This document shows positions 1,322-37,425 of a stretch of DNA of 39,036 nt, piece by piece. Below the pieces are notes generated by a model that was not told the DNA's origin, ran no database searches, and was given only the letters and a program-made list of their open reading frames with translations. Position 1 is the stretch's first letter, and each line of letters starts with the position of its first letter. Position numbers and translations under genes: made by a program. The stretch comes from a virus, in IMG/VR virus record IMGVR_UViG_3300046791_000259, positions 1 through 39,036 of that record, one strand, 5' to 3'.

Positions 1322-1369
1322 TTGGCTACTCCTCGTTTTTGGTCCGGGCTCATCCCTGACCATGGGTAG

Positions 1370-1398: not shown

Positions 1399-1463
1399 GT
1401 AACATTCTTGTGATGTTGCACCGCAGCATCACGATAGTGTGATGGGTCTTCACGTTTAATTGA

Positions 1464-1530: not shown

Positions 1531-1578
1531 ACGCACGCAATTTGCAGTGTGAAATAAATGGCACCAAGTTAGCACTCG

Positions 1579-9419: not shown

Positions 9420-9445
9420 AGCGAGCTTGAGTTGGAGTAGAGAAA

Positions 9446-19217: not shown

Positions 19218-19685
19218 ATGGAAGAGCTCTTGCCAGGTGAAGTGGTTGATCTTTCGGAGCCGGACTTTAGTTTAGTTCCAACTATCTACGTGGCTGCGCT
19301 CTGGCATCAGATTCAGCCAATCTTGATGGAGTTTGGGAAGAAGTGGCTTGAGACCTATTCGTTAGAGGAGGTTTGCCAGAGCTTAACTACAGGATATATG
19401 GATGTTTGGATTGCAGGAGAAGATGGTGTTGCGGAGGGAGTGACACTCTGTGCGTGGGAGTGTCATGCACATAAGAAGTTCTATCATATTCTCTTCTGTG
19501 GAGGTAGAGGGCTTGAGAAGTATTTCGATGGGTTGGAGAAGATCGAACAGTATGTGTGTATGTCAGGGGGAGCTGAAGTGCTGCTTGAAGGACGCTTGGG
19601 GTGGGGCAGGCGCTTGAAGAAGCATGGCTATTCCCAGACTACGGTGAAGCTACGGAAGCCAGTTTCCGTGCTCTGGAGGAGTTAA
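19218..19685 (+). CDS. GNAT-like virion protein, 155 aa
   Basis: The sequence has an acetyltransferase-like layout: helical ALWHQIQPILMEFGKKWLET, then strands (DVWIAGE, GVTLCAWECHA), then VLLEGRLGWGRRLKKHGYSQ and TTVKLRKPV at the end. Proteins like this sit just before the ejection genes in many podoviruses; T7 gp13 occupies the same place. The usual acetyl-CoA Q/RxxGxG motif is not obvious, so it may be a structural relic of the fold that acts in virion assembly. No close motif proves enzyme activity. Confidence 0.6.
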   Translation: MEELLPGEVVDLSEPDFSLVPTIYVAALWHQIQPILMEFGKKWLETYSLEEVCQSLTTGYMDVWIAGEDGVAEGVTLCAWECHAHKKFYHILFCGGRGLEKYFDGLEKIEQYVCMSGGAEVLLEGRLGWGRRLKKHGYSQTTVKLRKPVSVLWRS

Positions 19686-19686: not shown

Positions 19687-20559
19687 ATGGGCGGTCAATC
19701 GGCTCCGACTACGACGCAGACTTCGACAACGAAGTTAGGTCCGGAGCAAGAGCAAGTCTTCAAGATGGCTCTCCCGTATATTAATCAGTACGCGAGCCAA
19801 CCGATCCAGCAGTTTGCTGGGAGTGGAATTGCACCTTTCAATCCACTTGAGACGCAAGCTCAGGGGGAGTATGTTAATCAAGCAGCGCCGGCAGTTGCTG
19901 CCTTAGGTAATCAAGGGGCAGCGACGCAGAGTCAGTTGCTTGATCCGAACTTTATGCTCAATCCGAATCAGTATGTTGGGGCTGCAGGGCAAGCAGTGGC
20001 CGACACTACGACGAAGAATCTGATGGAGAATATACTTCCGGGAGTGAAATCTGGGGCGACGATGGCAGGGGGGCCTTATTCTGGAGGTTCGACGAGAGAG
20101 GGTGTTGCGACAGGGAAAGCTATTGGCGATACGGGTAGAGATATTTCGAACTCCTTAGCGGATATGTACTTCAAGAATTATACGACTGGACTTTCGGGAC
20201 TAGGTGAAGCTTTGAATCGTAATCCGAGTGTACAGCAGCAGCTCCTAATGCCAGAAGATATTAAGGCGTCAGTTGGAGCACAGCAGAGATCGATGCAGCA
20301 GGCACAGCTTGATGAACAGGTGAAGAAATTCTACACAGGACAAGAGTTGCCGCTGATTCAAGGTCAGACGCTGCTTCAGTTGATTCAGGGAATGCCAGGA
20401 GCTACGACGATGGGAACAGCGACTGGAGCAGTACCGCAGTCGAGTCCAATGATGCAAGCATTGGGGCTTGGCGCGACTGCACTTGGATATGGAATGGGTG
20501 GACCGATTGGCGGGGCGATAGGTAAGGGTGCAGCTGGAGCAATTGGAGGAGCAAAGTAA
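19687..20559 (+). CDS. Ejection/internal virion protein, 290 aa
   Basis: Begins MGGQSAPTTTQTSTTKLGPE and is rich in Gln, Gly, Ala and Met, with helical EQEQVFKMALPYINQYASQ and a Gly/Ala-rich hydrophobic end (LGLGATALGYGMGGPIGGAI) that could insert in or cross a membrane. This style and its place ahead of two similar Ala/Gln-rich genes and the giant protein fit proteins packaged inside the head or tail and ejected with the DNA. GGAG at 5-base spacing; stop overlaps the next start (TAATG). Confidence 0.65.
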   Translation: MGGQSAPTTTQTSTTKLGPEQEQVFKMALPYINQYASQPIQQFAGSGIAPFNPLETQAQGEYVNQAAPAVAALGNQGAATQSQLLDPNFMLNPNQYVGAAGQAVADTTTKNLMENILPGVKSGATMAGGPYSGGSTREGVATGKAIGDTGRDISNSLADMYFKNYTTGLSGLGEALNRNPSVQQQLLMPEDIKASVGAQQRSMQQAQLDEQVKKFYTGQELPLIQGQTLLQLIQGMPGATTMGTATGAVPQSSPMMQALGLGATALGYGMGGPIGGAIGKGAAGAIGGAK

Positions 20560-21056: not shown

Positions 21057-21943
21057 TGGCTGGCGGATTTGATTTGATGTCCCTACTGCCTGGTGCGAAT
21101 CAGGAGCAGCAACAGCAGCCTGGGCAACCTGAGCAGGCTCCGGCGCAAGCAGCGCCTGCAGCAGCGGCGAAGGGAGGTTGGGGAGACTATCTCTCTGATC
21201 CAGTGAATAGAGCGTTTATGGTCTCTGCGGGACTGCAGATGGCCACTGGAGGGTGGGGAAATTTCGGGCAGCAAGCTGCGGCGAGTCTAGGAGCAGGAGC
21301 GAGTGCGGCGAGCGGGACGCAGCAAGCACAATTCGACACGCAGGAGAAGAATGCACAGCAGGAAGCGGAGAGGCAGAATAAGCGCGATGTGGCTTCAATC
21401 GGAGCGCAGAGTAGACAAGAGGTGGCCTCGATTCGTTCGCAGGCTATGTTGGAGAGGTCTCGACTCACGCAGGGAGCAAAGACTCCACAGGAAGCTAAGG
21501 TAGCGTCGGATGCGTATCAGAAGTCTCTTGCAACGCTTCGGGCTGCCCAGATTATTTCTGGCAAGACGGATGAGGAGATTGAAGCAACAGCAGAGGCAGA
21601 CTCGACTAAAGCCTTGGCTATACATCGAGCAGCGCAGGGAGGAGGGAAGGCGCCGGATACTGGAGCGGTGGGAGCGGTAGCACCGGCGCCGGCGGCGAAG
21701 CCAACTAGTGCAGCTGCAACTAAGAAGCAATCTGATGCTCTCTGGTTGAAGATTCAAAATAATCCAGACTATGCAGCTGCAATCGCTACACCAGAAGGAA
21801 GGGCGAAGTTGAAGGAAACGTATCCAGAATTCAAGAGTCAGATTGATACTGCGAGTCAGGCTTCAGATAGACAGATTAGAGCAAATAAGTCTATGGAATA
21901 CTTTAAGAGTCTATTTGGAGCTCCGGGTGGGGGAACTCCCTAA
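21056..21943 (+). CDS. Ejection-type coiled-coil protein, 295 aa
   Basis: ATG at 21056 follows GGGAGGGG by a short spacer and overlaps the previous TGA; TTG at 21053 is less likely. After a Gln/Pro/Ala-rich start come a small hydrophobic region (AFMVSAGLQMATGGW), an Ala/Gln helix (QAQFDTQEKNAQQEAERQNK) and a long charged helix through residue 160. The C-terminal half is Ala/Lys-rich with further helices. It resembles podovirus internal virion proteins that form the trans-envelope channel. It ends TAATG with the giant gene. Confidence 0.6.
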   Translation: MAGGFDLMSLLPGANQEQQQQPGQPEQAPAQAAPAAAAKGGWGDYLSDPVNRAFMVSAGLQMATGGWGNFGQQAAASLGAGASAASGTQQAQFDTQEKNAQQEAERQNKRDVASIGAQSRQEVASIRSQAMLERSRLTQGAKTPQEAKVASDAYQKSLATLRAAQIISGKTDEEIEATAEADSTKALAIHRAAQGGGKAPDTGAVGAVAPAPAAKPTSAAATKKQSDALWLKIQNNPDYAAAIATPEGRAKLKETYPEFKSQIDTASQASDRQIRANKSMEYFKSLFGAPGGGTP

Positions 21944-24900
21944 TGGCTGGAATGAATCCGGGGCTCTACGACCTCCGGGATGCTACTGATAGCTTGGTGA
22001 CTCCGGCGGCGGATACGACGTCGGATCTTTACAATCTCCGTACGACTGAAGAGCAAGCGAAGCCGCAGTTGGAGTTGCCGGCTCCTGCACCTCCGGCTCC
22101 AGATCTCTTCTCCCTTCGTGGAACAGAGGATCAAGTACCTCCACAGGAAGTAGAGAGGCAGAAGAAGCGAGAAGAGACTGGGTTTGCAGATTTGGCCATT
22201 GGCTCTGTGCATAGAGGGTTGCAGAGTTATGCTGCAATTCCGGATTCGTTTAGAGCGATCGGGGCAGATCTGAGTGGAGATCAAGTTGCTGCAGCTGAGT
22301 ATGCGAAGAGTGCAAAAGCGATTGAAGATATAGCTCCGGAGAGTCTTTGGAGCTTGAGCGATATCCGGAATCCGATGGATTTTGGTTCTTGGCTAACGGA
22401 AAGGTTAGGTGAGAATGCAGTTAACATCTTGGCTGCCGCTGCTACTGGCGGCGTTGGCGCTATCACAGGCTCCCTGGCTGCTCGTGGCTTGGGTCTTAGC
22501 AAAGTGGCCCGTGCCTCTTTGATGAAGGGACTGGGAGCTGGTGGAGTTTTCGCCTCTACTATGCCGATTGAAACTTCGAGTACAGTGGGAGAGCAGTTTG
22601 AAGCGACAGGTAGTCCGCAAGCGGCAGTGAGCTTAACTGCAGGTACAATTAAGGGTGCTCTTGAACTAATAGTGCCGATGCATATTGGCTATGCGTTGTC
22701 GACTCCTGGAAAGCAGTTGGGGAAGACTATTCCTGGAGCGATTGCGAAAGTTGGAGGGGAAGAAGCAGCTACTGAGCTTGCTCAGGAAGAGGTTGATATT
22801 GTTGCCCGGAAGTATACGGATCCGAGTTATGAGTATTTCGGTGGGCCTGCGCTCTGGAGAAGAGCGGAATCTGGTACAGCAGGACTCTTCGTCGGATTAG
22901 CAATGGGAGGTCCGAGTGCGGTAATAGAGGCGAGGCAGGAGAATGCTAAGGCGAAAGCTAAGGTGCCTGATGAGAGTGGAATGGTTCCAGGAGAACGGAG
23001 GTTTGTGGCACCTACGGCTCCAGCTCCAGTTCAGGAAGCAAGGGTAAGAGTCCAGGGAACAGTGCAGGATGTTACGCCTCAAGCTGCATCGGAAGCTGCG
23101 CCGATTGAGACTCCAACTATTCCCCCTGGGACGCCTCCTGCACCTCCTGCACCTCCAGCTGCACCTATAGCTCCAGTTGCGCCTACGGAAGAAGTTCCGG
23201 CGCCTGAGATGATTGCTCCGAGTAAGCCAGAGGGAGTGACCTTCGACACGGAGTCTGACGGGCCGACGCAGACTACGGTTAAGATCAAAGGTCCGGATGG
23301 AAGTGAGATCGGAGAAGCTTATGTTCGGAAGTTGAGAGGGCCTCCGGATGGAGCGCCGGTGGCACTGCAGGTAGGGAATATTGCTATCGATGAGGCTTGG
23401 CAGAGGAAGGGAATTGGGACTGCACTGCAGGAGGAGTTAGAGCAGAAGTATGGGCTGCCGATGGTTCCAGATCAGACGTTGTCGAAGGAAGCGTATGCTC
23501 GTTGGAAGCAGATTGATCCGGAGGCAGTGGCAGGCTACACTGCAATGAGAGATGGAGAATCTTACTACGCTCCGATGGGAAAACGGGAGTGGTATCCGGG
23601 AGCGCCAGATACGCCAAGAATGGCACGGGTGAGGAAAGCGTTTGCAGCGCAAGAGTATTCACGGGAGGTGTCGCGGGGAGTCGGGCCGGTCACTACGCTT
23701 CGAAATATGGTTATGCCAGTACCGGAGCAGGACTTTGATTTGAAGCAGGCAGCGACTAATGGGCCGGAGCAAGACTTGATGGGAATTGGTCCATTGTTGA
23801 GAAGTGGTATGCCTCAAGTGACTACTCAAGATATGTTAGACATGTTGGAAGCGCAGACGCCACGGTATGCAGTGAAGTTGAGTCCAGATGGTGTCTATGG
23901 CGATAAGTTGATGAATAACACGGATCTTCAGCTTGTGCTGGCGACTGGAATGGCGCAGTCAGTGAAGCCGGAGGTGGTGCAGATTTCACAGGGTGGATTG
24001 CAACCGCTAGGAATCTCAGCAGATGTATTTGATCTTCCTACACCTGGAAATAGTAGGGTTTGGTTCCTGCCGCAGGTGTCAGCGGAAGAGCAGGCACTGC
24101 TTGGAATGGAGTATAAGGATCTTCAGAAGCAGGCAGAGTTGGGGCAGCGTACCAGATTGAAGTCTGTTGCAGATTATTTGCAGGAGAAGAAGCAACTTGA
24201 AACTTGGTATAATGTGCTCTTGACGAGGGGGTTGCGCGTTGTTCCGAGTCGCGGCGCAAGTTTCTACTATAACACAGTGTTGGATGGAAGAACACTGACG
24301 AAGAAGGAAGTGGCAGATAGTGGAAGGACTGCTGCGATTACATTCATGGATGTTAAGACTGGTGTGTTGACGAATAGTACATATTTAGACTCGTCTAGCC
24401 TTAGTGATCCTGGAACACAGTATTTGCCTGTTGCGTTAGATTTGAATAAGTTTAAGCCTGGAGAAGTTAGTGCTCTTCCTTATTCAGGAGGTGGGGGTGC
24501 CTCGAGCTTCAACTGGAGATTTAAGCCAGGAACGACTGCGGAAGAGAAAGCACGGCTGATAGCTAAAGCACTTGAAACCATTCCTATGAAGAATGAATGG
24601 ACAGAAGGGGATATCGCTAAGTTTCGTGCTTTGATGAAAGAAGGAATTTGGCTACAAGTCTATCCATTTAGTGGTCAGATCGTTACTGCTGAACCAATCA
24701 CTCACAATCAGCTTACGTATGGTATTTCGCCGATTCGTCTAGAGCAGACTGCGTATAGTCTATTTGAGCGTTCGCAATCTCGCCATACGCAGGAGCGCCT
24801 ACCACTACCCACTACAACAGTGACGACAGAGAAGAGTGCTTTTCCGACTGAGGCTCTGCAAGCAGCGTTTGTCTCTAATCATGTGGAGAATGTAGTTCCT

Positions 24901-27900
24901 TTAGTGGATCAGCTTTTGAAAGCAGCAGGAATGGATGGCGGGCTTAATATTCAAGTCAAGTTCCCGCCGGTAGGGCAGGCGCATGTGTTGGGATCAGCGA
25001 ATATTAATAAGGGGGAGCTTACAATCTACGTTACACACTCGAATGTAGAAGGAGGTGCAAATAGAATCTTCCAGACTATAATGCATGAAGTTGGTCATTT
25101 TATTGCATACTATCACTATGCTAGGTTGCCCGCAATAGTGCAGCAGCAAATGTACTACGCGTATCAGAAGGCGTTGTTGGTAAGTAGAACGATGACGCAG
25201 AGAACGACAGAAGCACGAATTGGACCAATGGATAGTCCAGGGGAGTATAGTGGAAATATAAATTATTTCACCTCTTACGTGGAGTGGATTGCGGAGCAGT
25301 TTCGTAGGTGGAGTATAGCTACGCCTGAGTCGAAGACCTTCTTAGATAATGAGTATTACAAGATTGCTCAAGCGATGAATAAGTTTTACGTTCAGTGGGA
25401 AGAGCTTGGAGGTAAGTATGCTCTAGATATCACGCAGCCAGATTACTTCTTCTCACTAGTGATGGAATATCTGCGCCAGTTCTCGAAGGAGAGAGCTGAA
25501 GCTACACAGAAGATGAAGCAACAGACTATTTATTCGTTGAATCAAGATCTTCTAGACTCCCCGGTAATGTTGTCAGTCACACAGGCAATTCAACATGCGC
25601 TTCAATCTATGGCAGGGATTGTACCGAAGGACACATTGATTAAAGTCAATCCGAAGTTGGATGCAACGATTGCTCCTGTAGCAAGGGGAGCTGTTGCAAG
25701 GTATATGTATTTTGAGAATCAGAACCTTAATTTCATGGAATTAGCTGTTGGAGCACTAAAAAGTGAGGAGGCTTATGGCGAGACTCGAGTGCGGGTTGCA
25801 CATGAACTCGTGCATGCTTATCGACGGATAGGGCTCTTAACCGACGTAGCGTTTGAGCAACTTTATAGGTTTGCGAAGAAGGATGGAGTTGATCTCGGGA
25901 CGATAGCGAAGACAGATTTGCGTGAGGAAGTAGAGAAGTTCGTAGCGGCGCAGAATATGCCGCAAGATAAGGCGACGAGAGATCGAGTTTACGAAGAGTG
26001 GTTGAAGGAAGAGATAGTAGCGTACTATATTGGAGATTATGCTAATACGGGAGTTGCAACAGGAGAAGCAAAGTCGCTCCTGGACTATTTCCTGCAAGTG
26101 CTGAGTCGTATTCGGAACTTCATTCAAGGATTGGGATTTAAGACAAGAGAAGATCTTCTCCGAGCATTCTTCAACGGTGAGATGCTAGAAAGAGAAGATC
26201 GCCGGGCGGAAGAGCAGCAGTTAGTTCAAGACGTGGCGAACTATAAATCTGAGCTTCACGATAAGGGAATGATCTTTAACAAGGTGCAGATGGATGGGCC
26301 TAATTTCGTGGCTACAGCATACTCTGGACGTAATGGAATTAATAGTAAAGATGTGAAATACTACTGGTATACGCAGAATCCAACTGTAGGGAAGGGTGCG
26401 CGCCCAATTGGAGTGTTGTTTGCGAAGAACCGTATGCCGAAGGGCTTTGATATTGATTGGATTGAGTCGACTAGGCTTGGGTTAGCGCCCAGAATGATCT
26501 CCTACATGGAGAAGGATTTAGGAGTGAAGGCGAAGCCTAGTGGTACCTTTACTGCACAGGGCTATGAGTTGGGTAAGCTAAGATTTCCTGAACTCTTGAA
26601 GTACTATGTTCAGAATCCAGTCAATAAAGATTACTATTCTCCGAATGAGATTCAGAGACAATTAAGAGTGGAACGATCTACGCGTGCGCTCTTGCAGAAG
26701 CGAGGAGAGTTATCGCCAATAGAACAGGTCAGATTTGACTTGACCATTGCGGTCTTTTCTAAGATGGCTTCTAAGGTGCAGAAGGGAGTCTTCTCGAACA
26801 GAGAGCTCTTGAATCAGATGTTTATGTTAGATCGGAACTATGAGAAGGATGAAGTTCAAGGGAGTTTGATGCTATCGGGGGCTGAAGCGCAGAACAACAA
26901 GCTTTCAGGAATTGTCGGGAACTATACAGGTCCGACAGTTGAACCGTTCGAAGCGGTGACTGATAAGTTAAATAAGCTTGAAGCAGCGAAGCATGATGGA
27001 ATTGCACCGCAAGTTGAAGCTCGCTATATGCGGAGAATTCTTGAGCGAGTGCAGCATCTGGAATCTAGCCCAGAGGTGAAGAAGCATTTGAAAGTGAGTG
27101 TGATTTCAGATGAAGCAGATAGAATTGGCTACTTCACCCGAGTGTATTGGGGCTTGCATCAACTCGTTTGGCGGAATGAGCATATTCCAGGATTGCTGGA
27201 CTACATGCAAGACACGGAGTTATTCAATCAGACTCTTTCTCGGTGGCATAGTAGAGCGGATGAGATTGCCCGAGCGTGGGACTCAAGCGATGCTAATCGC
27301 GATGGAATTAGCTCGATGATGTTCTGGCTCGCCGAGATGCAATATCGTAGCGCGGTGGAGGTTGCGGGGAAGATTGTAAGAATGCCGACACAGTATGAGC
27401 GAGAGATGCAAGCGAGGAAGTTGAAGTTGAGTCCAGGGGATATTGCTCTAGTTCGGCAAGTTGAGAAGGAGTTCTCGGACTTTATTACTGAAGTGGAGCA
27501 GGTGAGTATTGATAATATCCGAGACACAGTGAGTGATCCAGTTGCTGCAAGTTTGGCCATTTTGGAGGTGCAGGCAGAGATTGCAGCTCTTAGGAAGAAA
27601 CCCTATTTCCCTATCACTCGCTTTGGGAAGTTCAGTATCACTGCGAGAGATGGTCTCAATTCGAAGAAGGTAGATGCATTCTATACTTTCGACACGTATA
27701 GGCAGTTGCAGGATGAGATTGCTAACATTGCTAGAGTGCATCCAACTTCGGATCTCTTTGAGGGACGAGTGCCGGAGGAGATGTTCGAATTCATGGGGCT
27801 TCCTGCTCCACTGATTCGTATTATTAGGACGGAAATGCCCGGACTGACCCCTAGTCAGCAAGCGTGGTTAGAGGACTTTGAGCGAATTAACTTGCCTGAT

Positions 27901-29865
27901 AAGACATTCAGGAAGAGGTGGCTTCCAGCTCGTGGGACTCCTGGGTATTCGATGGATGGATTCCGTGTCTATGCGCACTACTTCATGCATGGAAGCAGAT
28001 ACCTTGCGCGGTTGAAATTCGCGAGGAAGATGTCGGCGGATATTAGTACAGTTAGAGCGACAACTGATCAATTGCCAAGTTCGCTCAAGAGGAGATTGAT
28101 TGTCGATTATATGACTAAGCATTATAACTATATAATGGAGAGTGGAAAGGATTGGAGTAAGTTTAAGGCTTTTGTTGCACTTTGGCAATTGGGGTTTAGT
28201 CCTGCAACAGCAGCGATTAATCTCACTCAGATTCCAGTGGTGACTTTACCACACTTGGCTGGGACCTTTGGTAATGGTCAAGCGATGGTGGAACTAGGTC
28301 GAGCTATCTCTAAGTTGTCGAAGTCGAGAGGAACTAATCCTGGGGGAACGGGGAAGTTCTTCGAAGCATGGGAGGAGATGAAGCAGCAGGGGAGAATTTC
28401 AATTGGCCAAGCAGCAGAGTTAGGGTCCTATGCGCAGGGGCATAATTTGGGTAAACTGCTCGGCGGGACGAAGGTCCAGAAGTTCTATAGGAATGCTGCT
28501 TACTATGGCATGTGGATGTTTCAGAAGGCAGAGGAGGCGAACCGAAAAGTGACCTTCACTGCGGCCTGGGAACTGGCGATGAAGAACCCTGGGACGAAGA
28601 GATTACAAGAGATTCAAGGAACTGCCGCGACCTCTCATCCGGGTTCGGGGTATAATAGAGAGATTGCAGACTTGATGGCGAGGAAGGGATTCTCGCATCA
28701 GGAAGCAGTGGCGTTTATCTTCACGAAGGGAGTGATTGATCAGACGCAGGGCATTTATGCTCCCTACTCTCGACCAGCGTTCATGCGAAAGCCATTAGCT
28801 GGAGCATTGTTGATCTTCTATCAGTTCACGCAGATGATGACTTATGTGTTTAGATATAGTCCAGGCACTGTTCAGCTCTTGTTGATTACCGCAATGCTCT
28901 ATGGACTTGGTGGATTGCCGGGGTCAGACGACCTCAATGAGTTGTTGAAGCTCTTAGGGAAGAAGCTCTTCGGAGCGGATTGGGACTTGCAGCAGCATGC
29001 GAGGAAGTTTGCTCGAGAGCTTACTCGAGGGACGTTGTTCGATGAAGAGGGGCCAGACTTACTCCTGCACGGAGTCTCGAGATATGGGTTCGGATTGGGA
29101 TTGCTGCCAGAGGGTTGGGCCTTAGGCAAGTTCGATGCGAGTGCGAATGGAAGTTTGGGTAAGTTAGTTCCAGGCATGTATGAGATGTTGCATGGAATCA
29201 ATACGAAGCAAAAGCCGGATCAGTTCGTTTCTGATACCATGCAGCGGATGTCTGGAGCTGGGTTTGGGTTTATGTTCAATTTCATCCAGTGGGGAATGGA
29301 GAATCCTGGGACGACAGACTCGCATAAATGGGAGAGTATGCTGCCTCGAAGTGCCAGAGCTGTCGCGAAGGCCTATAGACTCTATTCGGATGAGGGAGAG
29401 ACAACGAGGCAAGGAGCGCGCATTGTGAAGTTTGATGTGCAAGAGCCGGAAGATTTAGCTGCAATTGCTACGCAAGCTCTGGGGTTCTCTGCGACGAAGA
29501 ATACTGCGAAGTGGGAAATGCTTAGGGAGCAGAGAGATCAGCTTCAACTCTACACGGCGGAGAGAGCTATACTCTACGCGCAGATGGACCGGGCGGTGAG
29601 GAGTGGGAATCCTGGTGTGGTGCAAGATGTGTTGAAGTCAGTTCGCCTCTACAACGAGGATGTGAAGCAAGTTGATCCGAGTATGCAAATCCAGGCGAAG
29701 TTGATGCTACAGAGTGTGCAGCAGAGGATCAGAGGCCGGGCGATGCAAGAACTCGGCCTGCCAACGCAGAAGGGGCAGATTCCTGTCACGAAGAGAATGC
29801 AGGATATGTTCCCGAATGTGGAGGCGGAGAGAGTGCGTACGGAGCGGAGGCTGTTGGGGCAATGA
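21943..29865 (+). CDS. Giant polyvalent ejection protein with zincin, GNAT and PLxRFG segments, 2640 aa
   Basis: One uninterrupted frame of 2640 codons. Seen in order: a disordered charged start; a hydrophobic Ala/Gly region about residues 150-215; a Pro/Ala-rich linker about 350-430; a GNAT-like segment with QRKGIG at 487-492; a zincin-like motif HEVGH at 1048-1052; a second, HELVH, at 1287-1291; the PxxxxRFG motif (P1887 to G1895) of PLxRFG phage proteins; and a hydrophobic stretch about 2283-2325 that could span a membrane. Large phage proteins that join peptidase, transferase and other domains are known as polyvalent proteins and are thought to enter the host with the DNA and disable defences or remodel the cell envelope. 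The zincin sites suggest protein cleavage; activity is not proven. Last and longest gene of the ejection set. Confidence 0.8.
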   Translation: MAGMNPGLYDLRDATDSLVTPAADTTSDLYNLRTTEEQAKPQLELPAPAPPAPDLFSLRGTEDQVPPQEVERQKKREETGFADLAIGSVHRGLQSYAAIPDSFRAIGADLSGDQVAAAEYAKSAKAIEDIAPESLWSLSDIRNPMDFGSWLTERLGENAVNILAAAATGGVGAITGSLAARGLGLSKVARASLMKGLGAGGVFASTMPIETSSTVGEQFEATGSPQAAVSLTAGTIKGALELIVPMHIGYALSTPGKQLGKTIPGAIAKVGGEEAATELAQEEVDIVARKYTDPSYEYFGGPALWRRAESGTAGLFVGLAMGGPSAVIEARQENAKAKAKVPDESGMVPGERRFVAPTAPAPVQEARVRVQGTVQDVTPQAASEAAPIETPTIPPGTPPAPPAPPAAPIAPVAPTEEVPAPEMIAPSKPEGVTFDTESDGPTQTTVKIKGPDGSEIGEAYVRKLRGPPDGAPVALQVGNIAIDEAWQRKGIGTALQEELEQKYGLPMVPDQTLSKEAYARWKQIDPEAVAGYTAMRDGESYYAPMGKREWYPGAPDTPRMARVRKAFAAQEYSREVSRGVGPVTTLRNMVMPVPEQDFDLKQAATNGPEQDLMGIGPLLRSGMPQVTTQDMLDMLEAQTPRYAVKLSPDGVYGDKLMNNTDLQLVLATGMAQSVKPEVVQISQGGLQPLGISADVFDLPTPGNSRVWFLPQVSAEEQALLGMEYKDLQKQAELGQRTRLKSVADYLQEKKQLETWYNVLLTRGLRVVPSRGASFYYNTVLDGRTLTKKEVADSGRTAAITFMDVKTGVLTNSTYLDSSSLSDPGTQYLPVALDLNKFKPGEVSALPYSGGGGASSFNWRFKPGTTAEEKARLIAKALETIPMKNEWTEGDIAKFRALMKEGIWLQVYPFSGQIVTAEPITHNQLTYGISPIRLEQTAYSLFERSQSRHTQERLPLPTTTVTTEKSAFPTEALQAAFVSNHVENVVPLVDQLLKAAGMDGGLNIQVKFPPVGQAHVLGSANINKGELTIYVTHSNVEGGANRIFQTIMHEVGHFIAYYHYARLPAIVQQQMYYAYQKALLVSRTMTQRTTEARIGPMDSPGEYSGNINYFTSYVEWIAEQFRRWSIATPESKTFLDNEYYKIAQAMNKFYVQWEELGGKYALDITQPDYFFSLVMEYLRQFSKERAEATQKMKQQTIYSLNQDLLDSPVMLSVTQAIQHALQSMAGIVPKDTLIKVNPKLDATIAPVARGAVARYMYFENQNLNFMELAVGALKSEEAYGETRVRVAHELVHAYRRIGLLTDVAFEQLYRFAKKDGVDLGTIAKTDLREEVEKFVAAQNMPQDKATRDRVYEEWLKEEIVAYYIGDYANTGVATGEAKSLLDYFLQVLSRIRNFIQGLGFKTREDLLRAFFNGEMLEREDRRAEEQQLVQDVANYKSELHDKGMIFNKVQMDGPNFVATAYSGRNGINSKDVKYYWYTQNPTVGKGARPIGVLFAKNRMPKGFDIDWIESTRLGLAPRMISYMEKDLGVKAKPSGTFTAQGYELGKLRFPELLKYYVQNPVNKDYYSPNEIQRQLRVERSTRALLQKRGELSPIEQVRFDLTIAVFSKMASKVQKGVFSNRELLNQMFMLDRNYEKDEVQGSLMLSGAEAQNNKLSGIVGNYTGPTVEPFEAVTDKLNKLEAAKHDGIAPQVEARYMRRILERVQHLESSPEVKKHLKVSVISDEADRIGYFTRVYWGLHQLVWRNEHIPGLLDYMQDTELFNQTLSRWHSRADEIARAWDSSDANRDGISSMMFWLAEMQYRSAVEVAGKIVRMPTQYEREMQARKLKLSPGDIALVRQVEKEFSDFITEVEQVSIDNIRDTVSDPVAASLAILEVQAEIAALRKKPYFPITRFGKFSITARDGLNSKKVDAFYTFDTYRQLQDEIANIARVHPTSDLFEGRVPEEMFEFMGLPAPLIRIIRTEMPGLTPSQQAWLEDFERINLPDKTFRKRWLPARGTPGYSMDGFRVYAHYFMHGSRYLARLKFARKMSADISTVRATTDQLPSSLKRRLIVDYMTKHYNYIMESGKDWSKFKAFVALWQLGFSPATAAINLTQIPVVTLPHLAGTFGNGQAMVELGRAISKLSKSRGTNPGGTGKFFEAWEEMKQQGRISIGQAAELGSYAQGHNLGKLLGGTKVQKFYRNAAYYGMWMFQKAEEANRKVTFTAAWELAMKNPGTKRLQEIQGTAATSHPGSGYNREIADLMARKGFSHQEAVAFIFTKGVIDQTQGIYAPYSRPAFMRKPLAGALLIFYQFTQMMTYVFRYSPGTVQLLLITAMLYGLGGLPGSDDLNELLKLLGKKLFGADWDLQQHARKFARELTRGTLFDEEGPDLLLHGVSRYGFGLGLLPEGWALGKFDASANGSLGKLVPGMYEMLHGINTKQKPDQFVSDTMQRMSGAGFGFMFNFIQWGMENPGTTDSHKWESMLPRSARAVAKAYRLYSDEGETTRQGARIVKFDVQEPEDLAAIATQALGFSATKNTAKWEMLREQRDQLQLYTAERAILYAQMDRAVRSGNPGVVQDVLKSVRLYNEDVKQVDPSMQIQAKLMLQSVQQRIRGRAMQELGLPTQKGQIPVTKRMQDMFPNVEAERVRTERRLLGQ

Positions 29866-31168: not shown

Positions 31169-31390
31169 TCACTTGACCTCCAGTTGATTATCTATGATCC
31201 AAGTACGAGCTGCACCTGCTGCCGCGATATACGCTCTAGATGGATCCTTCGTCACCTCCTGCCCCTTCCTATAAGTGCGCCAGATCTCATTACGAATGTG
31301 CTTCGGAAGGCGGAACCAGTGCGATTTGCAACCCCAAAGGTTGGGCGGGACTTCGATTTTGCATCCAGGCCAATGGCAAGTGTGGCTCAT
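31169..31390 (-). CDS. Zinc-binding phage protein, 73 aa
   Basis: Starts MSHTCHWPGCKIEVPPNLWG, then C-K-S-H-W-F-R-L-P-K. The C-x4-C and C-x2-H set forms a probable zinc site. The conserved HWFRLPKHIRNEIWRTYRKG and an AYIAAAGAARTWI helix mark a small protein seen beside DNA polymerases in many phages. Its role is not known to me; DNA binding or assisting the polymerase is inferred from position. ATG at 31390 overlaps the palm-half stop as ATGA, so the two are translationally coupled. The longer frame to 31435 lies inside the polymerase gene and is not needed. Confidence 0.8.
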   Translation of the reverse strand: MSHTCHWPGCKIEVPPNLWGCKSHWFRLPKHIRNEIWRTYRKGQEVTKDPSRAYIAAAGAARTWIIDNQLEVK

Positions 31391-32160
31391 GCCGCCTGCA
31401 ACTCCTGCCAGGTCACTTTCTCCGCGTGTCCCCAAGATCTTTCACTCAACTTCATTCCCCAGGGAATCTCAAGAGGATCTTCATACGGGACAATGACTCT
31501 AAGAGCGTCACGAATCACTCTATACCCTGCGATTGAGTGTCGGTGATTCGGGAACTGAAAGACTAAGGAGTCGTGTACTTGGAGCAGGATCTCAACCCAC
31601 GGCACATACTTCCGGAGGTTGATAGCACCTTTCGAGCATGTGATAGCGACCGTAGACTGTGGTATCCATGCAAGCGCTTTTGGGAGGATATTACTCGGTC
31701 GATCGAAGTAAGTGATGGAGAAGCCAAACTTATTGCTAACGCCACGCTTAGAGCTCTGGATTTGCGCGTCGACTTCTCTCTGCCAGTTGAGGATGCCAGG
31801 GTAGGTCCGGAGGTACCCGGACTGGAAAGCTCGGACTTCCACAATCTTCCATCCAAGAATTTTCGCAAGTTCTCTTTCAGAAACAAGGTAGTTAGTGCCA
31901 TGCACTCCACGCTTACACTCATCTCTCCAGGTGAGCTTTCGGCGAATCTTCTTTGGATCGTAAGTCGTTCCCCAGAGTCTGTTTCCATTGAAATTGTGAA
32001 TATCAAGGCCCGCTCTAAAGGCACTCTTCAACTCCTTCTCGTTTGCCTCCCAGGCCACGACTTGAGCATCGGCTCCAGAGAGGTCGCAGTCCGCTATGAT
32101 CTTCCCCTTGTCTGGGAGGATCAGTTGTCGAACTGGTGGCTTCTCCCACTTTGGTAGCAC
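31387..32160 (-). CDS. Family A DNA polymerase, C-terminal half (palm and fingers)
   Basis: This 257-residue protein starts just before motif A and carries all three polymerase motifs: A, DLSGADAQ with catalytic D26; B, R79-x3-K83 then H87 and Y91; C, VHDS with D197. By alignment with E. coli Pol I, residue 710 (Glu) is Asp here, residue 762 (Phe) is His, and the Glu after the motif C Asp is Ser. It lacks exonuclease and thumb, which are encoded by the gene at 34113-36029. GTG at 32160 has GAGGAG at 8-10-base spacing, so it is translated as a separate chain. The same frame upstream is closed by the TGA of the 74-aa gene. Activity would require joining with the other half. Confidence 0.85.
   Translation of the reverse strand: MLPKWEKPPVRQLILPDKGKIIADCDLSGADAQVVAWEANEKELKSAFRAGLDIHNFNGNRLWGTTYDPKKIRRKLTWRDECKRGVHGTNYLVSERELAKILGWKIVEVRAFQSGYLRTYPGILNWQREVDAQIQSSKRGVSNKFGFSITYFDRPSNILPKALAWIPQSTVAITCSKGAINLRKYVPWVEILLQVHDSLVFQFPNHRHSIAGYRVIRDALRVIVPYEDPLEIPWGMKLSERSWGHAEKVTWQELQAA
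32140..32154 (-). repeat. Junction repeat at the palm side of the polymerase split
   Basis: Read on the - strand this 15-mer starts CCAAAGTGGGAGAA and codes PKWEK, the natural sequence between QNIP and motif A. It matches 34116-34130 (CCCAAGGTGGAAGAC) at about 11 of 13 positions with one gap. It may be a remnant of the event that placed the reductase cassette inside the polymerase. Confidence 0.5.
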
Positions 32161-32172: not shown

Positions 32173-32397
32173 TCAGTCGCAAGTTAGACCCTTCTCTTCA
32201 ACTAACCATCGAGGGACGGCAATCACTACTGGTTTTGATCGTGGAAGTATTATCTCCTCTTCCGGTTCGACCTGACTCTTCGGGAGCCAGTGTTCGATCT
32301 GCTTACCGTCTTTGTCGGTTAGACCTTCAGTGACCTTCCAGGCCTTGATGGTCTCTGTCAAGACGATAAGGCTAATGTCAATTAGTTCTTTACTCAC
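32173..32397 (-). CDS. Small hypothetical protein in the reductase cassette, 74 aa
   Basis: GTG at 32397 lies inside the end of the reductase gene (TGTGAGTAA), an 8-base overlap. Contains EHWLPKSQVEPEEE and VIAVPRWLVEEKGL, a small-protein pattern that I have seen among phage replication genes but cannot name. It looks like a compact OB- or barrel-like strand set (ISLIVLTETIKAWKV) ending in a short helix. It ends in TGA, and only four codons later, in the same frame, the palm half of the polymerase begins. It may assist the reductase or polymerase; no evidence decides this. Confidence 0.65.
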   Translation of the reverse strand: MSKELIDISLIVLTETIKAWKVTEGLTDKDGKQIEHWLPKSQVEPEEEIILPRSKPVVIAVPRWLVEEKGLTCD

Positions 32398-34111
32398 AGC
32401 TTCTCACTCCTGTCACTGGGTCAAATTCGCACGAACTCACAGGCTCATCTCCGTTGTCTTTAGAGACAAGGACCGCTCCACGGAAGTTCCCTGTTCGGTG
32501 AGTCGTGCAGCCCTTGCATCCGGCCTCCCAGGCCTTGAAGTAGACAGACTGAAAATCATCCCAGGAGACGTTAGTTGGCACGTTACAAGTCTTACTCACT
32601 GCCGAGTCGATGTGATAACTCACGATCGTAAGCACCTCCAAGTGATCATTCACTGAACACTTAGAGCTAATCTTCCCATGGGTGTCGAGGAAACGCACTC
32701 CATAGTCTTGAACCTCTACCTTGCGGACTCCGTTGAATTCGCGCAGAGTACGCTCTGTCTCGTATGCATAGACGGGTTCGATCCCGGAGGAGACATTGTC
32801 TGCGGCGAAGCTAATCGTTCCAGTGGGAGCGATCGAGAGCAAGTGCGAATTACGGATTCCATTCTCTGCAATTAGATCTCTCGTTTCGTCGGACAAGCTT
32901 TCTACGAACCGCGCCGATAAGTACCTTTCCTTATCGTAGAGTGGGAATGAGCCTTTCTCCGCAGCAAGTTCCGCTGAAGAGCGGTAAGTCGCGTTCTTGA
33001 GGGCTGAGAGGATGTTCGCTGTCGAGGAGACGAAAGCATTTGAACCATAAAGTGGCCCCATTGCTTCGATACAGTTAGCAAGTCCTGTAACTCCAAGGCC
33101 CATCCGCCGCTTGCTCTTCGCTTCATCTTCTTGCTCCGAGAGAGGGTATTTCGCTCGATCCACTACGTTGTCCATTGCTCGCACTACATGTGGGATGTCC
33201 TTGAAGAGTTGGACGTAGTCGAATTCCCACTGTTGGCGGAGGCCGCCTCTTCGCAAATACTTGACTAGATTCCAGGAGCCGAGGAGACAGGCTCCATATG
33301 GAGGGAGTGGCTGTTCGCCGCAGGGATTAGTCGCAGCAATAGTCTCGCAATAGTAAAGATTATTGAACTTATTAATGGAGTCGATGAAGAGGACGCCGGG
33401 CTCGCTCCAGTCGAAGGTCGAGCGCATGATCGCCTCCCACAAGGTCTTGGCTTCAACCGTGCGATAGATCTTCTTCCCCCACCGGAGATCGAAGGGGCTC
33501 CCGTGTTTGACCGCAGTCATAAATTCGTCAGTGACTGCGATGGAAAGATTGAAGGCAGTGAAGCGTTTAGAGTTCTGCTTCGCTCTAATAAATTCTTCAA
33601 TGTCAGGATGGTCAATTCGGAGCACTCCCATCTCTGCGCCACGACGATCTCCAGAGCTCGCTGTACACCGACCCACTGCATCATAAATGTCAATAAAACT
33701 GACCGCTCCAGAGGAGCGCGAGTTAAGTTTCTTAATAAGCTCGCCTCTTGGACGGAGCGTTGAGAAGTCGTAGCCAATTCCACCACCAAGTCGCATAGTT
33801 GCAGCTGCTTCGTGAGCTCTCGACATAATTGAATCGTGGCCGTCGACGTAAGAGTCTCCAATGGTACCAGAGACGAAGCAATTGTAGGGGGTTGTTCCTT
33901 TGCTTGAGCCGACACTGGTCTGTATCCTTCCGGCAGGCATGAAGCGCATAGATAAGAGGATTTCACGAAGGGCATGATAGTGCTCATCGTTGTCGGAGAG
34001 AGCAGAAGCAATTCTACTCATCGCTTCGCGAAAGCTTTCCCCCTCTCCGCGGTACTTCTCGGCATGGATTTGATCGCAAGCAGGCGTTTGAGGTCCATAA
34101 GTGATCGTCAT
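32390..34111 (-). CDS. nrdJ: Ribonucleoside reductase, class II (adenosylcobalamin dependent)
   Basis: Class II reductases use vitamin B12 coenzyme, without oxygen or a second subunit, to turn ribonucleotides into deoxyribonucleotides. Signature sequences present: YNCFVSG near residue 76, RLGGGIGYDFS, and NPCGEQPLPPYGACLLGSWN with C264, E266 and C275 in the spacing of the thiyl-radical and active-site cysteines. Also seen are IAPTGTIS, NVPTNVSWDDF and a C-terminal CKGC plus two late Cys for reduction. At 573 aa it lacks an ATP-cone, like many phage forms. Start ATG 34111 follows the polymerase N-half stop as TAAGATG; its end overlaps the 74-aa gene. Confidence 0.9.
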   Translation of the reverse strand: MTITYGPQTPACDQIHAEKYRGEGESFREAMSRIASALSDNDEHYHALREILLSMRFMPAGRIQTSVGSSKGTTPYNCFVSGTIGDSYVDGHDSIMSRAHEAAATMRLGGGIGYDFSTLRPRGELIKKLNSRSSGAVSFIDIYDAVGRCTASSGDRRGAEMGVLRIDHPDIEEFIRAKQNSKRFTAFNLSIAVTDEFMTAVKHGSPFDLRWGKKIYRTVEAKTLWEAIMRSTFDWSEPGVLFIDSINKFNNLYYCETIAATNPCGEQPLPPYGACLLGSWNLVKYLRRGGLRQQWEFDYVQLFKDIPHVVRAMDNVVDRAKYPLSEQEDEAKSKRRMGLGVTGLANCIEAMGPLYGSNAFVSSTANILSALKNATYRSSAELAAEKGSFPLYDKERYLSARFVESLSDETRDLIAENGIRNSHLLSIAPTGTISFAADNVSSGIEPVYAYETERTLREFNGVRKVEVQDYGVRFLDTHGKISSKCSVNDHLEVLTIVSYHIDSAVSKTCNVPTNVSWDDFQSVYFKAWEAGCKGCTTHRTGNFRGAVLVSKDNGDEPVSSCEFDPVTGVRSCE

Positions 34112-34112: not shown

Positions 34113-36029
34113 TTAGTCTTCCACCTTGGGAATGTTCTGATTATTGGTTGCCTCGCCGAAAGAGTTCTCGCTCGAACTCCAGCGGAACGTTTCAGGCTGC
34201 GCTACGTTGAACTGTGGATGCATGCGTCCATCTGGTCCCTCCTTCGCTTCAAGAAATTCTCTGAACTTATTCATCGATCTCCATTCGGAGAGCGTGTCTA
34301 GCCAGTGTCCATACCAAGGGTACTTCTCCGCCAGCTCACTCAACGCTGAATCATCCGTAGTAGGCTTCTTAGTCTTCTTATGCTTCTGCTGCTCTAAGCC
34401 GAGGCGTTCATAGAGGAGGTTAGCCATAGCGATGGGTGAGGTGAAGTAGGGCTTTCCAGACACTACCTTGGAGATTTGTTCAGGTACACAGGATTCTAAC
34501 CAGGAAGCTCGGGAGGCAGTTTGCATGATCAGATCAGTCAACATCCGGTCTCGCTCTTCTCGATTGAAGTGGTAGCCTCGGAGGGTCATATCGCGGGCCA
34601 GCTCCCACTGCTCCATCATGAACTCGAACTGAGGCTCCAATTTGCGCTTCTGGATCAACTTGACTAAGAGCTGAGCAGACTCATAAGTGTGGCGTGTATC
34701 TTTGCAATTATACCGCCACATCTGTTCCGCAGACATCTCACTTGCATTCCATCCTTCGGATTCGTTCTTCCAGTAGCAATAGGAGTTGCAGTAGCATGAG
34801 GCGAGGTATTCGAGCGATTTTGGGACTCCGGGGAAGAGGAGGTGCTGCGCAACCATCGTATCGAAGTTCACGATCGCCTCGATCCCGTAGGTGCGGAAGA
34901 GCCATTGAGTGTCGTAGGTGAAGTTCTGGCCAATGATCTTGCAGTTGGGATGCTCAAGCAACGTCTTGAGACGTTCCCATAGCCAGAGCTCTTCATGTTC
35001 GAGCCAGTAGGGTATGGCATAGTTTGGGGCATTCTGTTCCCCATATGTCCGCGCCACTGACGGCCGCAAATTTGGGGAGGGGGAGTGGCCCACGGGAGCG
35101 GGCGGCGCCGAAATTTGCCTGTTCGCCGCCCCGCCGGCGGCATCCTGGGCCGAGTGGCCCGCTGTGCCCGCATATGAGAACAAAGGTATAGCCAACTCGC
35201 AAGTGGCGTCAGCAAGCCCGACCACGGTGATGTACTTCCTCCGAGGGTAGTCGGTCTCCAAGTCCACTGCGAGTGGGAGTGGACGCTGGTGGCAGATAGC
35301 GATCCAGGAGTTTAGGATGGCGGTGAGTTGGGTGAAGTCGGGCCGCCAGATGGAGTTGAGCTCGGGAGACTGCCAGGGTAGAGTGCCAGTTAAAAATCTC
35401 TTACCTCTTGATCTAAGATCATGTACGGTGATGGATCGGAAGCCCCACTCGCGAAGGATCGCAGCGGGATGGATGATGGGCAGAACCGGATACTGCCGTC
35501 CGGAAATAGGGATAGAGTAGGTTTGAGATCCACGCCAGGTGAGGATGCCAGCAGGGACTCGGAAGCCCTTCTTGGTGCTAAGCTCGGCATGATCTGTGAG
35601 TGCCCATAGAGGCCAGTTACCTGCCGCGATAAGGAGCTTAGGCTGGACATGATTAATGAGAGAGTAGAGACGATCAAGATGAGTCCGAGCAAGAGGAGAT
35701 AGGTAGAGTCCACGGTAGTTGAGAGCATCTTTCTCTACCTTCTTTTTGGGAGTTGGGAGGAGGAAGCGAGTGAATTCGTTGAACTGTGGTTGAGCGGAGA
35801 CTACATTTGTGCAGAGGAAGTGATTGCGGTCGAGTCCTGCCTCTTTCAACATGCGGTTGAATTCTTGCCCGGACTGGCCAACGAACGGTGCAGAGAGGCG
35901 AGCTTCTTCCGCGCCCCAGGCTTCGCCGACGATCATCGCTGAAGCGGTGCGCGGACCGGAGGTGCCGGAGAAGAGGGAGTGAGAGATGGAGGGAGAGATG
36001 GAGGAAGAGATGGGGTTAAGTTTTTGCAT
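34113..36029 (-). CDS. Family A DNA polymerase, N-terminal half: UDG-like domain, 3'-5' exonuclease, thumb
   Basis: Residues 30-210 form a uracil-DNA-glycosylase superfamily domain (GEAWGAEE at 35-42, PFVGQSGQEF, HPAAILRE at 187), as in the SPO1 polymerase type. The DEDDy exonuclease follows: D256-x-E258, D373 in QNFTYD, and Y440/D444. An Ala/Gly/Pro-rich insert of about 45 residues lies between the first two exonuclease motifs. The thumb runs to FRWSSSENSFGEATNNQNIP and the chain then stops after KVED, exactly before motif A. The palm is coded 2 kb away at 31387-32160. ATG at 36029 has GGAG at 6-base spacing and overlaps the methyltransferase gene by 14 bases. Likely gives proofreading and primer binding to a two-chain polymerase. 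Confidence 0.85.
   Translation of the reverse strand: MQKLNPISSSISPSISHSLFSGTSGPRTASAMIVGEAWGAEEARLSAPFVGQSGQEFNRMLKEAGLDRNHFLCTNVVSAQPQFNEFTRFLLPTPKKKVEKDALNYRGLYLSPLARTHLDRLYSLINHVQPKLLIAAGNWPLWALTDHAELSTKKGFRVPAGILTWRGSQTYSIPISGRQYPVLPIIHPAAILREWGFRSITVHDLRSRGKRFLTGTLPWQSPELNSIWRPDFTQLTAILNSWIAICHQRPLPLAVDLETDYPRRKYITVVGLADATCELAIPLFSYAGTAGHSAQDAAGGAANRQISAPPAPVGHSPSPNLRPSVARTYGEQNAPNYAIPYWLEHEELWLWERLKTLLEHPNCKIIGQNFTYDTQWLFRTYGIEAIVNFDTMVAQHLLFPGVPKSLEYLASCYCNSYCYWKNESEGWNASEMSAEQMWRYNCKDTRHTYESAQLLVKLIQKRKLEPQFEFMMEQWELARDMTLRGYHFNREERDRMLTDLIMQTASRASWLESCVPEQISKVVSGKPYFTSPIAMANLLYERLGLEQQKHKKTKKPTTDDSALSELAEKYPWYGHWLDTLSEWRSMNKFREFLEAKEGPDGRMHPQFNVAQPETFRWSSSENSFGEATNNQNIPKVED
34116..34130 (-). 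repeat. Junction repeat at the thumb side of the polymerase split
   Basis: On the - strand CCCAAGGTGGAAGAC codes PKVED, the last residues before the stop. Without one extra G it would read PKWK, close to the PKWEK that opens the palm half. The pair 34116-34130 and 32140-32154 thus looks like a short duplication around the inserted cassette. Confidence 0.5.
35041..35178 (-). other. GC-rich in-frame insert within the exonuclease domain
   Basis: About 140 bases far richer in G and C than their surroundings, with hairpin-forming segments, sit inside the polymerase N-half gene and stay in frame. They code the low-complexity stretch SYAGTAGHSAQDAAGGAANR and onward to about SVARTYGEQN. CATATG lies near both ends with partly inverted flanks (GTTCCCCATATG and the complement of CATATGAGAAC). 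The segment contains GCCTGTTCGCC (35117-35127), identical to 239-249 in the left repeat block. It may be a small mobile palindromic element taken into the coding sequence. Confidence 0.45.
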
Positions 36030-37425
36030 CTGCATCTCCAAGCTTCAAGAGGCGCGAGCAGGCCATAGCGTGGTAGGTATCGTCGAGCTCAATCCCCGTG
36101 ACGGAGAGTTGACGAGTGGCAGCAGCATCGAAGATTGAGCCTGATCCGCAGCAAGGATCTAATATTGCGTCACCGGGGCGAGAGGAGATCTGGAGTAACC
36201 AGGAGAGGAGTTCGATGGGCTTCTCTGCGGCGTGGAGCTTCTCTGCGCGAGCAGTGCGTTCGAAGTAGCGTACGTCCGGACCTCCATTGTCTACAAGAGC
36301 CTTCTGCCCCTTGACGAAGAAGAGAAGGCATTCGTAGGTGTAGGTGAAGCCATTACGTCCCCAAGGGGCATGACCAGTGGCCTTGTCCTTTTGCCAGATA
36401 ATTGGTTTACGCCAAGTTGAGAAGGCTTGCTGTTCTGCAATGGTGCGGAGAGTGAGGAAGTGTTCGATGTCGCAGAACATGAAGCCAATTCCTTGAGGCT
36501 TGAGTAAGTGGAAGCCTCTTCGGAGGATGTAGCGGCAGAGTTCGACAGCGTAGTCCTTATCGTCCTTGTAGTTGTGAGCGGTGTCTGTCTTCATCTTGTC
36601 TGCATCGATGCCGTAAGGGGGGTCGACGATTAGTGTATCGAAGGAGGCGTTGGTAAGTTTGTTCATCACTTCCCGGCAGTCGCCTTGGAGACAGGTGTGA
36701 TTAGAGGAGAAGCCTGAGACTGCGATTAGTTCCCGCTCGAATTGAACACGTTGAGTGTCGAGGATCTGGCGATAAGCGGCGTGAACATTCTTCGAGTTAG
36801 CTATTCGAGGGTCGGAGAGATGCTTGGAGACAGTCATTGCCTGGACGAGGTTCTGTCGAGCGACTTCGACTCGCTTGCGATCTTTCGCATTGGCAGCAGG
36901 TTGGGTTGCTAAGACGATTTCAAAGGCAGTATCGGCTTGAGTCTGAGTGGGGTTCTGCTTCTGCCGGAGTTCGTGGAGCTTAGTTACTGCGGCTGCGCGC
37001 TCTTGCCAGGAGAGATCGGCTCGGAGGATATTTTCATCGAACTCAGCTTCTGCAAGCTCCAGTTCGGTCATCTGTTGAATGAGAGTGAAGGGCATCATGC
37101 CCGGAGGTACGAGCTCGCCGTTGTGCCGGAATTCGAGTCCGTCTTGATGCAGTTCACACATGGAGAGGTACCTGCGTTCTCCGACTAGGAGTGTGCAGGC
37201 GCCTTCGGGAGTGAAGTGCACTACTGGGGCATGGAAGAGGCCCTTGGCTACTATGCCTTTCTTGAGTTCCTGAAGTTCAGCGGAACTCTTATTCTCTTTC
37301 CTCTGGCGATCCACAGGGATTATGACAGCGCCAATAGGTACCAGTTGTCGTGTAGTGTTCGGTGCAGTTGATTGCGCGAGAAACATCGAGGGTGGTGAGT
37401 TTAGCTCTTGTAGTGAGTCGTTCAT
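36016..37425 (-). CDS. ParB-like domain fused to DNA methyltransferase, 469 aa
   Basis: Residues 25-110 resemble a ParB/Srx nuclease-type domain (LVPIGAVIIPVDRQRKE, then TLLVGERRYLSMCELH). A central helical part leads to an amino-methyltransferase: catalytic DPPYG at 268-272 and, after it, the cofactor motif DPCCGSGS from residue 423 with GIELDD. This order (catalytic motif before cofactor motif) is the beta class that methylates adenine N6 or cytosine N4. ParB-methyltransferase fusions are common in phages and probably protect their DNA from host restriction. ATG at 37425 has GGAAG at about 9 bases; the ATG at 37434 has no usable site. The stop overlaps the polymerase N-half start. Confidence 0.85.
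   Translation of the reverse strand: MNDSLQELNSPPSMFLAQSTAPNTTRQLVPIGAVIIPVDRQRKENKSSAELQELKKGIVAKGLFHAPVVHFTPEGACTLLVGERRYLSMCELHQDGLEFRHNGELVPPGMMPFTLIQQMTELELAEAEFDENILRADLSWQERAAAVTKLHELRQKQNPTQTQADTAFEIVLATQPAANAKDRKRVEVARQNLVQAMTVSKHLSDPRIANSKNVHAAYRQILDTQRVQFERELIAVSGFSSNHTCLQGDCREVMNKLTNASFDTLIVDPPYGIDADKMKTDTAHNYKDDKDYAVELCRYILRRGFHLLKPQGIGFMFCDIEHFLTLRTIAEQQAFSTWRKPIIWQKDKATGHAPWGRNGFTYTYECLLFFVKGQKALVDNGGPDVRYFERTARAEKLHAAEKPIELLSWLLQISSRPGDAILDPCCGSGSIFDAAATRQLSVTGIELDDTYHAMACSRLLKLGDADAKT

Follow-up and report, generated by a model that had tools for sequence, protein, structure and literature searches.

Why would a phage devote a fifth of its genome to one protein? The window, by which we mean the whole 39,036-base IMG/VR virus record analysed here, ends its plus-strand late block in a single gene of 7923 of the 39036 bases (20 %). 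A preliminary description, made from the letters alone, read its product as an ejected virion protein with two separate peptidase-like sites, a possible transferase and a PLxRFG segment, and suggested several weapons delivered with the DNA. By combining profile searches, structure prediction and a survey of related loci, we sought to establish which domains the protein holds, what they may do, and what its repeated N terminus may be for.

The giant frame and its surroundings

An ORF check confirmed the 2640-residue frame and its share of the genome, and HEVGH, HELVH and QRKGIG were all recovered where they had been placed (Table 1). The PLxRFG segment is also present, reading YFPITRFG at residues 1888-1895 (PITRFG from 1890), with Ile in place of Leu. 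In 5000 whole-protein shuffles, at least one HExxH appeared in 2.7 % and two in 0.02 %, and P[LIF]xRFG arose in 0.5 %. A loose [QR]xxG[IVL][GA] string turned up in 58 % of the same shuffles, and the GNAT motif alone therefore means little.

Table 1. Positions of the giant protein's features in the window, its neighbouring gene, and tagged small proteins of related loci (L numbers; positions within the locus).
Feature	Position	Strand	Basis or remark
Giant polyvalent protein, 2640 aa	21943..29865	+	ATG start, no internal stop; NF032893 match
Motif copy 1, LYDLRDAT, residues 8-15	21964..21987	+	sequence
Motif copy 2, LYNLRTTE, residues 29-36	22027..22050	+	sequence
Motif copy 3, LFSLRGTE, residues 55-62	22105..22128	+	sequence
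Conserved Ala/Gly-rich N-terminal domain, residues about 87-341	22201..22965	+	relatives
Pro/Ala-rich linker, residues 361-420	23023..23202	+	sequence
Probable GNAT segment, residues 459-505; QRKGIG 487-492	23317..23457	+	Pfam Acetyltransf_7 E 2.1e-4, below cut-off
Stretch without relatives, residues 560-960	23620..24822	+	profile searches
Predicted zincin 1, residues 985-1122; HEVGH 1048-1052, third ligand E1114	24895..25308	+	profile, alignment, model
Predicted zincin 2, residues 1209-1418; HELVH 1287-1291, third ligand E1357	25567..26196	+	profile, alignment, model
Stretch without relatives, residues 1425-1719	26215..27099	+	profile search of fetched loci
Conserved C-terminal region with YFPITRFG, residues about 1720-2640	27100..29862	+	profile matches
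Neighbouring gene, PHROG 'DNA ejection protein'	19687..20559	+	PHROG match, E 8.7e-10
L123, membrane-protein tail EWWKKGSTLVR			resembles EWWKQGATTVE of the giant
L122, membrane-protein tail NPFAKFH			resembles NPFAKFH, NPFARFH of the giant
L121, membrane-protein tail IEEFLRDAPP			resembles IDEFLKNAP of the giant
L130, membrane-protein tail TITYEQAFGLP			resembles SISYEEAFGLP of the giant
L133 (Acidovorax sp. sif1233), membrane-protein tail DWEKGVMTPP	9001-9396	+	resembles DWEKGSIQAP of the giant
L077, small membrane protein, weak Pfam TctB, unrelated to that of L043	1487-1885	-	ends in TDRFGGVLVEPAR
L084, protein with signal-peptide-like start	1075-1548	-	ends PDWENGIITPP, resembling EIDWESGQIG in its giant
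L131 and L132, three-helix membrane protein with three different tags in a row	9001-9504 in each	+	

Terminase, portal-type, head, tail and ejection-type genes make up the late block, all upstream of the giant gene, and the replication block lies downstream on the minus strand. Of the named relatives, Microcystis phage Mel-JY34 and Vibrio phage VS-ABTNL-3 are the nearest, and their gene order is the same. The window virus occurs in a second record (99.94 % over 14,248 nt), which covers giant residues 1-1416. Gene order and family together suggest that the protein is ejected and part of the virion, as first described. A domain-by-domain profile search, which the preliminary description had called for, returned two zincin-type domains, a probable GNAT and a PLxRFG-type C terminus, encoded at the late-block end. 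Several unrelated domain kinds thus share one chain (the two zincins and the PLxRFG region, with the GNAT probable), as in phage-type polyvalent proteins, which join unrelated domains in one late phage protein (PMC5512222). The gene lies near structural genes in a phage with terminase and portal genes, the setting of that class, and the giant protein belongs to this known group of injected proteins, in somewhat unusual form.

The C-terminal region scores 235.8 bits against NCBIfam NF032893, 'PLxRFG domain-containing protein' (cut-off 100), over residues 1887-2217 and on, and from about residue 1712 five PHROGs are matched at E 4.2e-6 or better. The giant shares this match with the other PLxRFG proteins of NF032893, a model that gives no domain function. 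The region matches 68 of 50,697 phage records, each with at most 80 % query cover and below 60 % identity; an IMG/VR scan found 446 C-terminal relatives (80 of the 446 listed), a second scan yielded 24 loci, and no solved chain matched the C-terminal profile at E <= 1. Public labels, 'DarB-like antirestriction' and 'putative DNA methylase' among them, appear to follow this shared C terminus. Pfam, PHROG and NCBIfam found no DNA methylase or helicase domain in the giant protein, which does not therefore qualify as a DarB-type antirestriction protein; its PHROG label of that type follows from the shared C terminus. The same three collections found no RNA polymerase domain, and it does not qualify as an N4-type virion RNA polymerase (vRNAP) either. 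The VS-ABTNL-3 giant gave no Pfam match at E <= 0.1, and no methylase domain was found in it. An LPD39 (PF18858) match of 37 residues was rejected at 13.8 bits against a gathering score of 27. In locus L006 (9358-14730, plus strand) and in matching phage records, the 'DNA methylase' and 'DarB-like antirestriction' names occur on proteins with only the C terminus in common.

Elsewhere in the window, the minus-strand DNA polymerase is split into 34113-36041 and 31387-32160 (PHROG profile positions 478-988 and 985-1238), without intein-like ends, and a ribonucleotide reductase gene (32390-34111, minus strand) lies between the halves. In VS-ABTNL-3 the polymerase is interrupted at almost the same point, where an unrelated 185-aa ORF lies between the parts; that of Mel-JY34 is whole. 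A DNA methyltransferase with a ParB-like N-terminal part is encoded at 36016-37497 (minus strand; PHROG matches). The 155-aa protein at 19218-19685 (plus strand) has no NCBIfam match, and relatives' genes in that place are annotated N-acetyltransferase.

Two zincin-type domains and a probable acetyltransferase segment

A profile iterated from residues 970-1200 collected 17 proteins for zincin 1, including the window giant, and in all 17 the residues H, E, G, H, Y, S, E and A (HExGH, later Y..S..E..A) are invariant; in the alignment, HExxH and E1114 are invariant in 15 of 15 rows. Built without the window giant, this profile gave 38.0 bits on residues 965-1210, against 20.6 bits for the best of 2000 shuffles that kept HEVGH. 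For zincin 2 we grew a profile from a different locus, excluding the window giant; it collected 98 MPTase domains among 105 giant proteins and matched the window giant at residues 1285-1417 with 27.7 bits. Here the score without the window giant was 33.6 bits versus at most 15.8 in 1992 scored HELVH-keeping shuffles, and every one of 38 rows keeps H, E, H and E1357. The zincin 2 profile also touches zincin 1 (12.9 bits), which suggests that both belong, as remote relatives, to a single superfamily, and weakly reaches the HELVH region of N4 vRNAP (14.2 bits). Among solved proteins it matches LUZ19 gp37 (E 6.4e-9) and Klebsiella phage gp10 (E 0.001), both internal virion proteins and the nearest solved relatives; like the giant they carry a zincin of this family, but in chains of 1337 and 1239 aa.

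Structure prediction, also proposed in the preliminary description, put HExxH in a helix that comes after the sheet, with the third ligand in another helix further along the chain; HExxH segments in non-zincin folds, the outcome named there as contrary to the claim, were not obtained. In the AlphaFold2 model of zincin 1 (15 sequences; mean pLDDT 65.8, pTM 0.60) there are an N-terminal helix and two strands, with HExxH falling within helix 74-93 and E1114 within helix 148-161 (model numbering). The model of zincin 2 has a mean pLDDT of 67.9, with blocks of 81-93 over model residues 81-170 and one block at 73. Alignments holding both zincins (A5, A6) placed the relatives on zincin 1 and were left out of folding. 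Foldseek returned no match below E 0.03 for either model, with zincins dominating the top of the list for zincin 1. VIA-align gave Z up to 8.1 for zincin 1, at the edge of the tool's meaningful range, with structures that are mostly zincins. For zincin 2 it gave Z up to 10.3, where 43 chains reach at least 8 and those ranked highest are zincins or zincin-like domains, some of them not known to have a catalytic site. The two peptidase-like sites are separate, each in its own zincin-type domain with HExxH and a downstream Glu invariant within its family, and the predicted zincin topology is of modest confidence. The catalytic residues are intact in both domains, which may bind zinc and cleave peptides.

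Counted by profiles, 41 of the 54 full-length relatives have one MPTase, ten have two, one has three and two have none, so that at least one is kept in 52 of 54. The pair is a minority form and already known, MPTase pairs in polyvalent proteins having been described by Iyer et al. 2017 (PMC5512222); in that account the zincin-like MPTase is the commonest domain, sometimes present more than once, and GNATs are known. Among the fetched relatives, the combination of a family-specific HExGH zincin, a canonical zincin and a probable GNAT occurs only in the window giant.

The possible transferase stood in part. QRKGIG fits motif A (Q/RxxGxG/A), and together with the sub-threshold Acetyltransf_7 match it speaks for such a domain; against it, the curated cut-off is not reached. 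Three Pfam GNAT families fall on this same stretch, all below their cut-offs (22.1 of 27, 17.7 of 23.6 and 18 of 20.7 bits), and a solved GNAT aligns with it at E 0.013. We regard an acetyltransferase domain as probable on these matches. In IMG/VR the segment returned only the same virus. A tblastn search of phages (E <= 10) gave seven weak matches, E 0.08 to 6, which were dropped as chance; two of the seven are internal virion proteins, and the Klebsiella match overlaps that family's zincin region. A second GNAT-like stretch near residue 1511 was rejected (phmmer against the first, E 130-150). The GNAT stretch and residues 560-960 and 1425-1720 had no relative among the fetched loci, and a GTDB scan with residues 420-1652 found none.

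Possible roles of the giant protein

We lean slightly towards the view that this is a polyvalent protein for ejection, from a phage of the short-tailed type, and that its zincins would cut either their own chain or another member of the ejection complex, host targets being a further option. The proposed layout runs from an N terminus with a three-copy tag through an Ala/Gly-rich domain, a variable payload (the probable GNAT and the stretches without relatives) and two zincin-type metallopeptidases to a PLxRFG region of ~900 residues. The protein would be a late product, loaded into the head and leaving it with the DNA or ahead of it; cleavage would separate the payload from the C-terminal region. 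An ejection role is consistent with the position of the gene after a 'DNA ejection protein' gene and with a NF032893 score far over cut-off; counting against this reading are pLDDT values of only 66-68, Foldseek matches none of which fall below E 0.03, and the two of 54 relatives in which an MPTase was not detectable. The MPTases of polyvalent proteins have been proposed mainly to process the polyprotein that carries them, whether ahead of packaging, inside the head or once injected, and targets in the host are named as another option (PMC5512222). N4 vRNAP has an MPTase-like domain yet, according to that account, enters the particle unprocessed (PMC5512222), which counts against cleavage before packaging. 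N4 gp50, a giant protein that is ejected, resembles the window giant in having an HExxH domain ahead of a large C-terminal region (PMC12633501), but its RNA polymerase domain was not found in the window giant, and the C-terminal profile does not match N4.

The zincins might instead be mainly structural parts of the ejection channel, compare LUZ19 gp37-like proteins and N4 vRNAP, with catalysis secondary. A zincin 2-family domain does occur in solved internal virion proteins, and HExxH domain C1 of N4 is described as playing a structural part beside a large helical domain (PMC12633501); yet HExxH and the third Glu are invariant in all rows of both alignments (15/15; 38/38), a conservation that a scaffold would not require, and we keep this as a minor possibility. 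The view of the preliminary description, that the zincins and the GNAT work inside the host cell against defence or envelope proteins, seems to us distinctly unlikely. It can call on host targets as a published option and on the placing of polyvalent-protein GNATs near RimI-like protein acetylases (both PMC5512222), and the extra modules at residues 430-960 and 1195-1720 have, the zincin aside, no counterpart in the fetched relatives, as for a variable payload. However, no target is indicated, and zincin 1 is kept across a 17-protein family with differing payloads, which would better fit a general role in processing or in the channel. A weapon role is unproven, and a role in self-processing or in the ejection channel is equally plausible. 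A polyvalent protein with two zincins, it contributes one more architecture to a known class.

Repeated N-terminal motifs and matching tails of prophage membrane proteins

Three copies of [LF][YF]xLRx[AT][TE] precede the conserved N-terminal domain of the giant; when residues 1-75 were shuffled 20000 times, three copies never arose. In the E..TE..Q of that domain, the two Glu and the Gln are kept in 23 of 23 relatives and the Thr in 20 of 23. Many relatives have different motifs at the N terminus, again in two or three copies. By self-alignment (p <= 0.02), 19 of 54 giant N termini passed versus 6 % of 147 control ORFs, and in a rerun with controls from the same proteins 18 of 54 passed, compared with 6 of 162 internal windows taken at random and 1 of 54 of low complexity. 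The giant proteins are related, which makes these counts non-independent, and 35 or 36 of the 54 fail the test. We read the repeated motifs as possible address tags, and in the window phage a tag-like working is suggested by the motif's place in a homologous protein. No other window protein carried the N-terminal tag above background, and hence no second carrier or decoy was seen in the window. A repeated N-terminal motif was not found in the polyvalent account (PMC5512222), at least in the part of it that is cited here.

Among 16 motif sets, the single clear second carrier within a locus was a membrane protein of L043, a 123-aa three-helix protein that ends in a motif copy and is encoded opposite to the giant gene. 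An IMG/VR search with it gave four loci, one being L043's own contig (one of six peptide patterns in the query came from the L043 tail; matches cover residues 4-101). With the tail removed, the membrane part found ten GTDB loci, four of them clear homologues and six (L134-L139) short partial matches; the L134 locus, when inspected, had no tag and no giant. In Burkholderiales prophages, all five membrane-protein homologues with a giant at hand end in the tag of their own phage, and the tags differ (Table 1). Ranked among 62 giants, the own giant came first for L123, L122, L121 and L133 and third for L130, where the two placed before it have the same tag as L130. Scanning 7575 ORF tails put these five homologues, L043 and an unrelated small membrane protein of L077 in the best seven places; seven tails scored 42 or more, versus 2, 0, 1, 0 and 1 in five permutations. 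The L077 tail, with DRFGG, resembles a DQFGG motif repeated in the giant of the same locus. The L084 match is suggestive, its tail scoring 35 against its own giant (rank 3/62).

L131 and L132 are closely related Delftia-type prophage regions with no frame of at least 900 aa in the fetched stretch, and their shared three-tag tail may, given this kinship, represent one event. Each of the three tags best matches the giant of another lineage (scores 55, 47 and 54), each score being equalled by 0 of 500 shuffles; the spacer is unremarkable (112 of 500). These tails are possibly a decoy array against several phages. Charge counts weakly favour a periplasmic tail in the three-helix protein and give no direction for that of L077. 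The gene before the giant-gene position opens with a two-copy short motif in L132 (9515-11080, minus strand; FGFHP/LGFRP) and in L133 (9396-11042, minus strand; RGFQP/RGFAP).

We tentatively propose that the N-terminal motif is a docking address used in packaging or channel assembly and, through prophage decoys, the target of a tag-based superinfection exclusion. The giant ejection protein would dock by its tag; prophage small membrane proteins with a copy of their own giant's tag would act as decoys, and Delftia-type arrays, with tags from several phage lineages, would jam the entry of any phage so tagged. Divergence of the tag between relatives and its repetition would follow from such an arms race, in which the window phage, with three LYxLRxTE-like copies, would be one player. 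Like the proposed decoys, P22 SieA is a prophage inner-membrane protein, and it acts against ejection proteins (PMC10883804); blocking by the decoys is a proposal from the tag match, and the cited part of the SieA account, unlike our proposal, holds no copying of an ejection-protein motif (PMC10883804). An open-access literature search found no description of tags matching between giant and membrane proteins.

Possible too, if somewhat doubtful, is that the repeated motif is a capsid-targeting sequence and the tagged small membrane proteins are further cargo. The first 30 residues of P1 DarB, also polyvalent, send it to the capsid (PMC9024508), and a capsid targeting sequence is common to T4 internal proteins (PMC3012670). 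But the four profiles tested all failed to match P1 DarB, the tagged small genes run opposite to the giant gene, and tags of three lineages on two closely related Delftia-type tails would not help to load their own head; the three-tag tails appear to favour decoys over extra cargo. Chance or recent low-complexity duplication could in principle produce both the motif copies and the membrane-protein matches, the motifs being short, 35 of 54 N termini failing p <= 0.02 and L084 being weak (rank 3/62). We consider this highly improbable in view of the excess over same-protein controls (18/54 against 6/162 and 1/54), the own-giant ranks of 1, 1, 1, 3 and 1 of 62 for homologues found by their membrane part, and the seven tails at 42 or more against 2, 0, 1, 0 and 1.

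Of the two observations, we consider that of the tag more important than the two-zincin architecture and the part worth following. Read as docking address and decoy target, the tag could account for the way these phages address giant cargo, and would predict, from sequence alone, which prophage membrane proteins exclude which phages.
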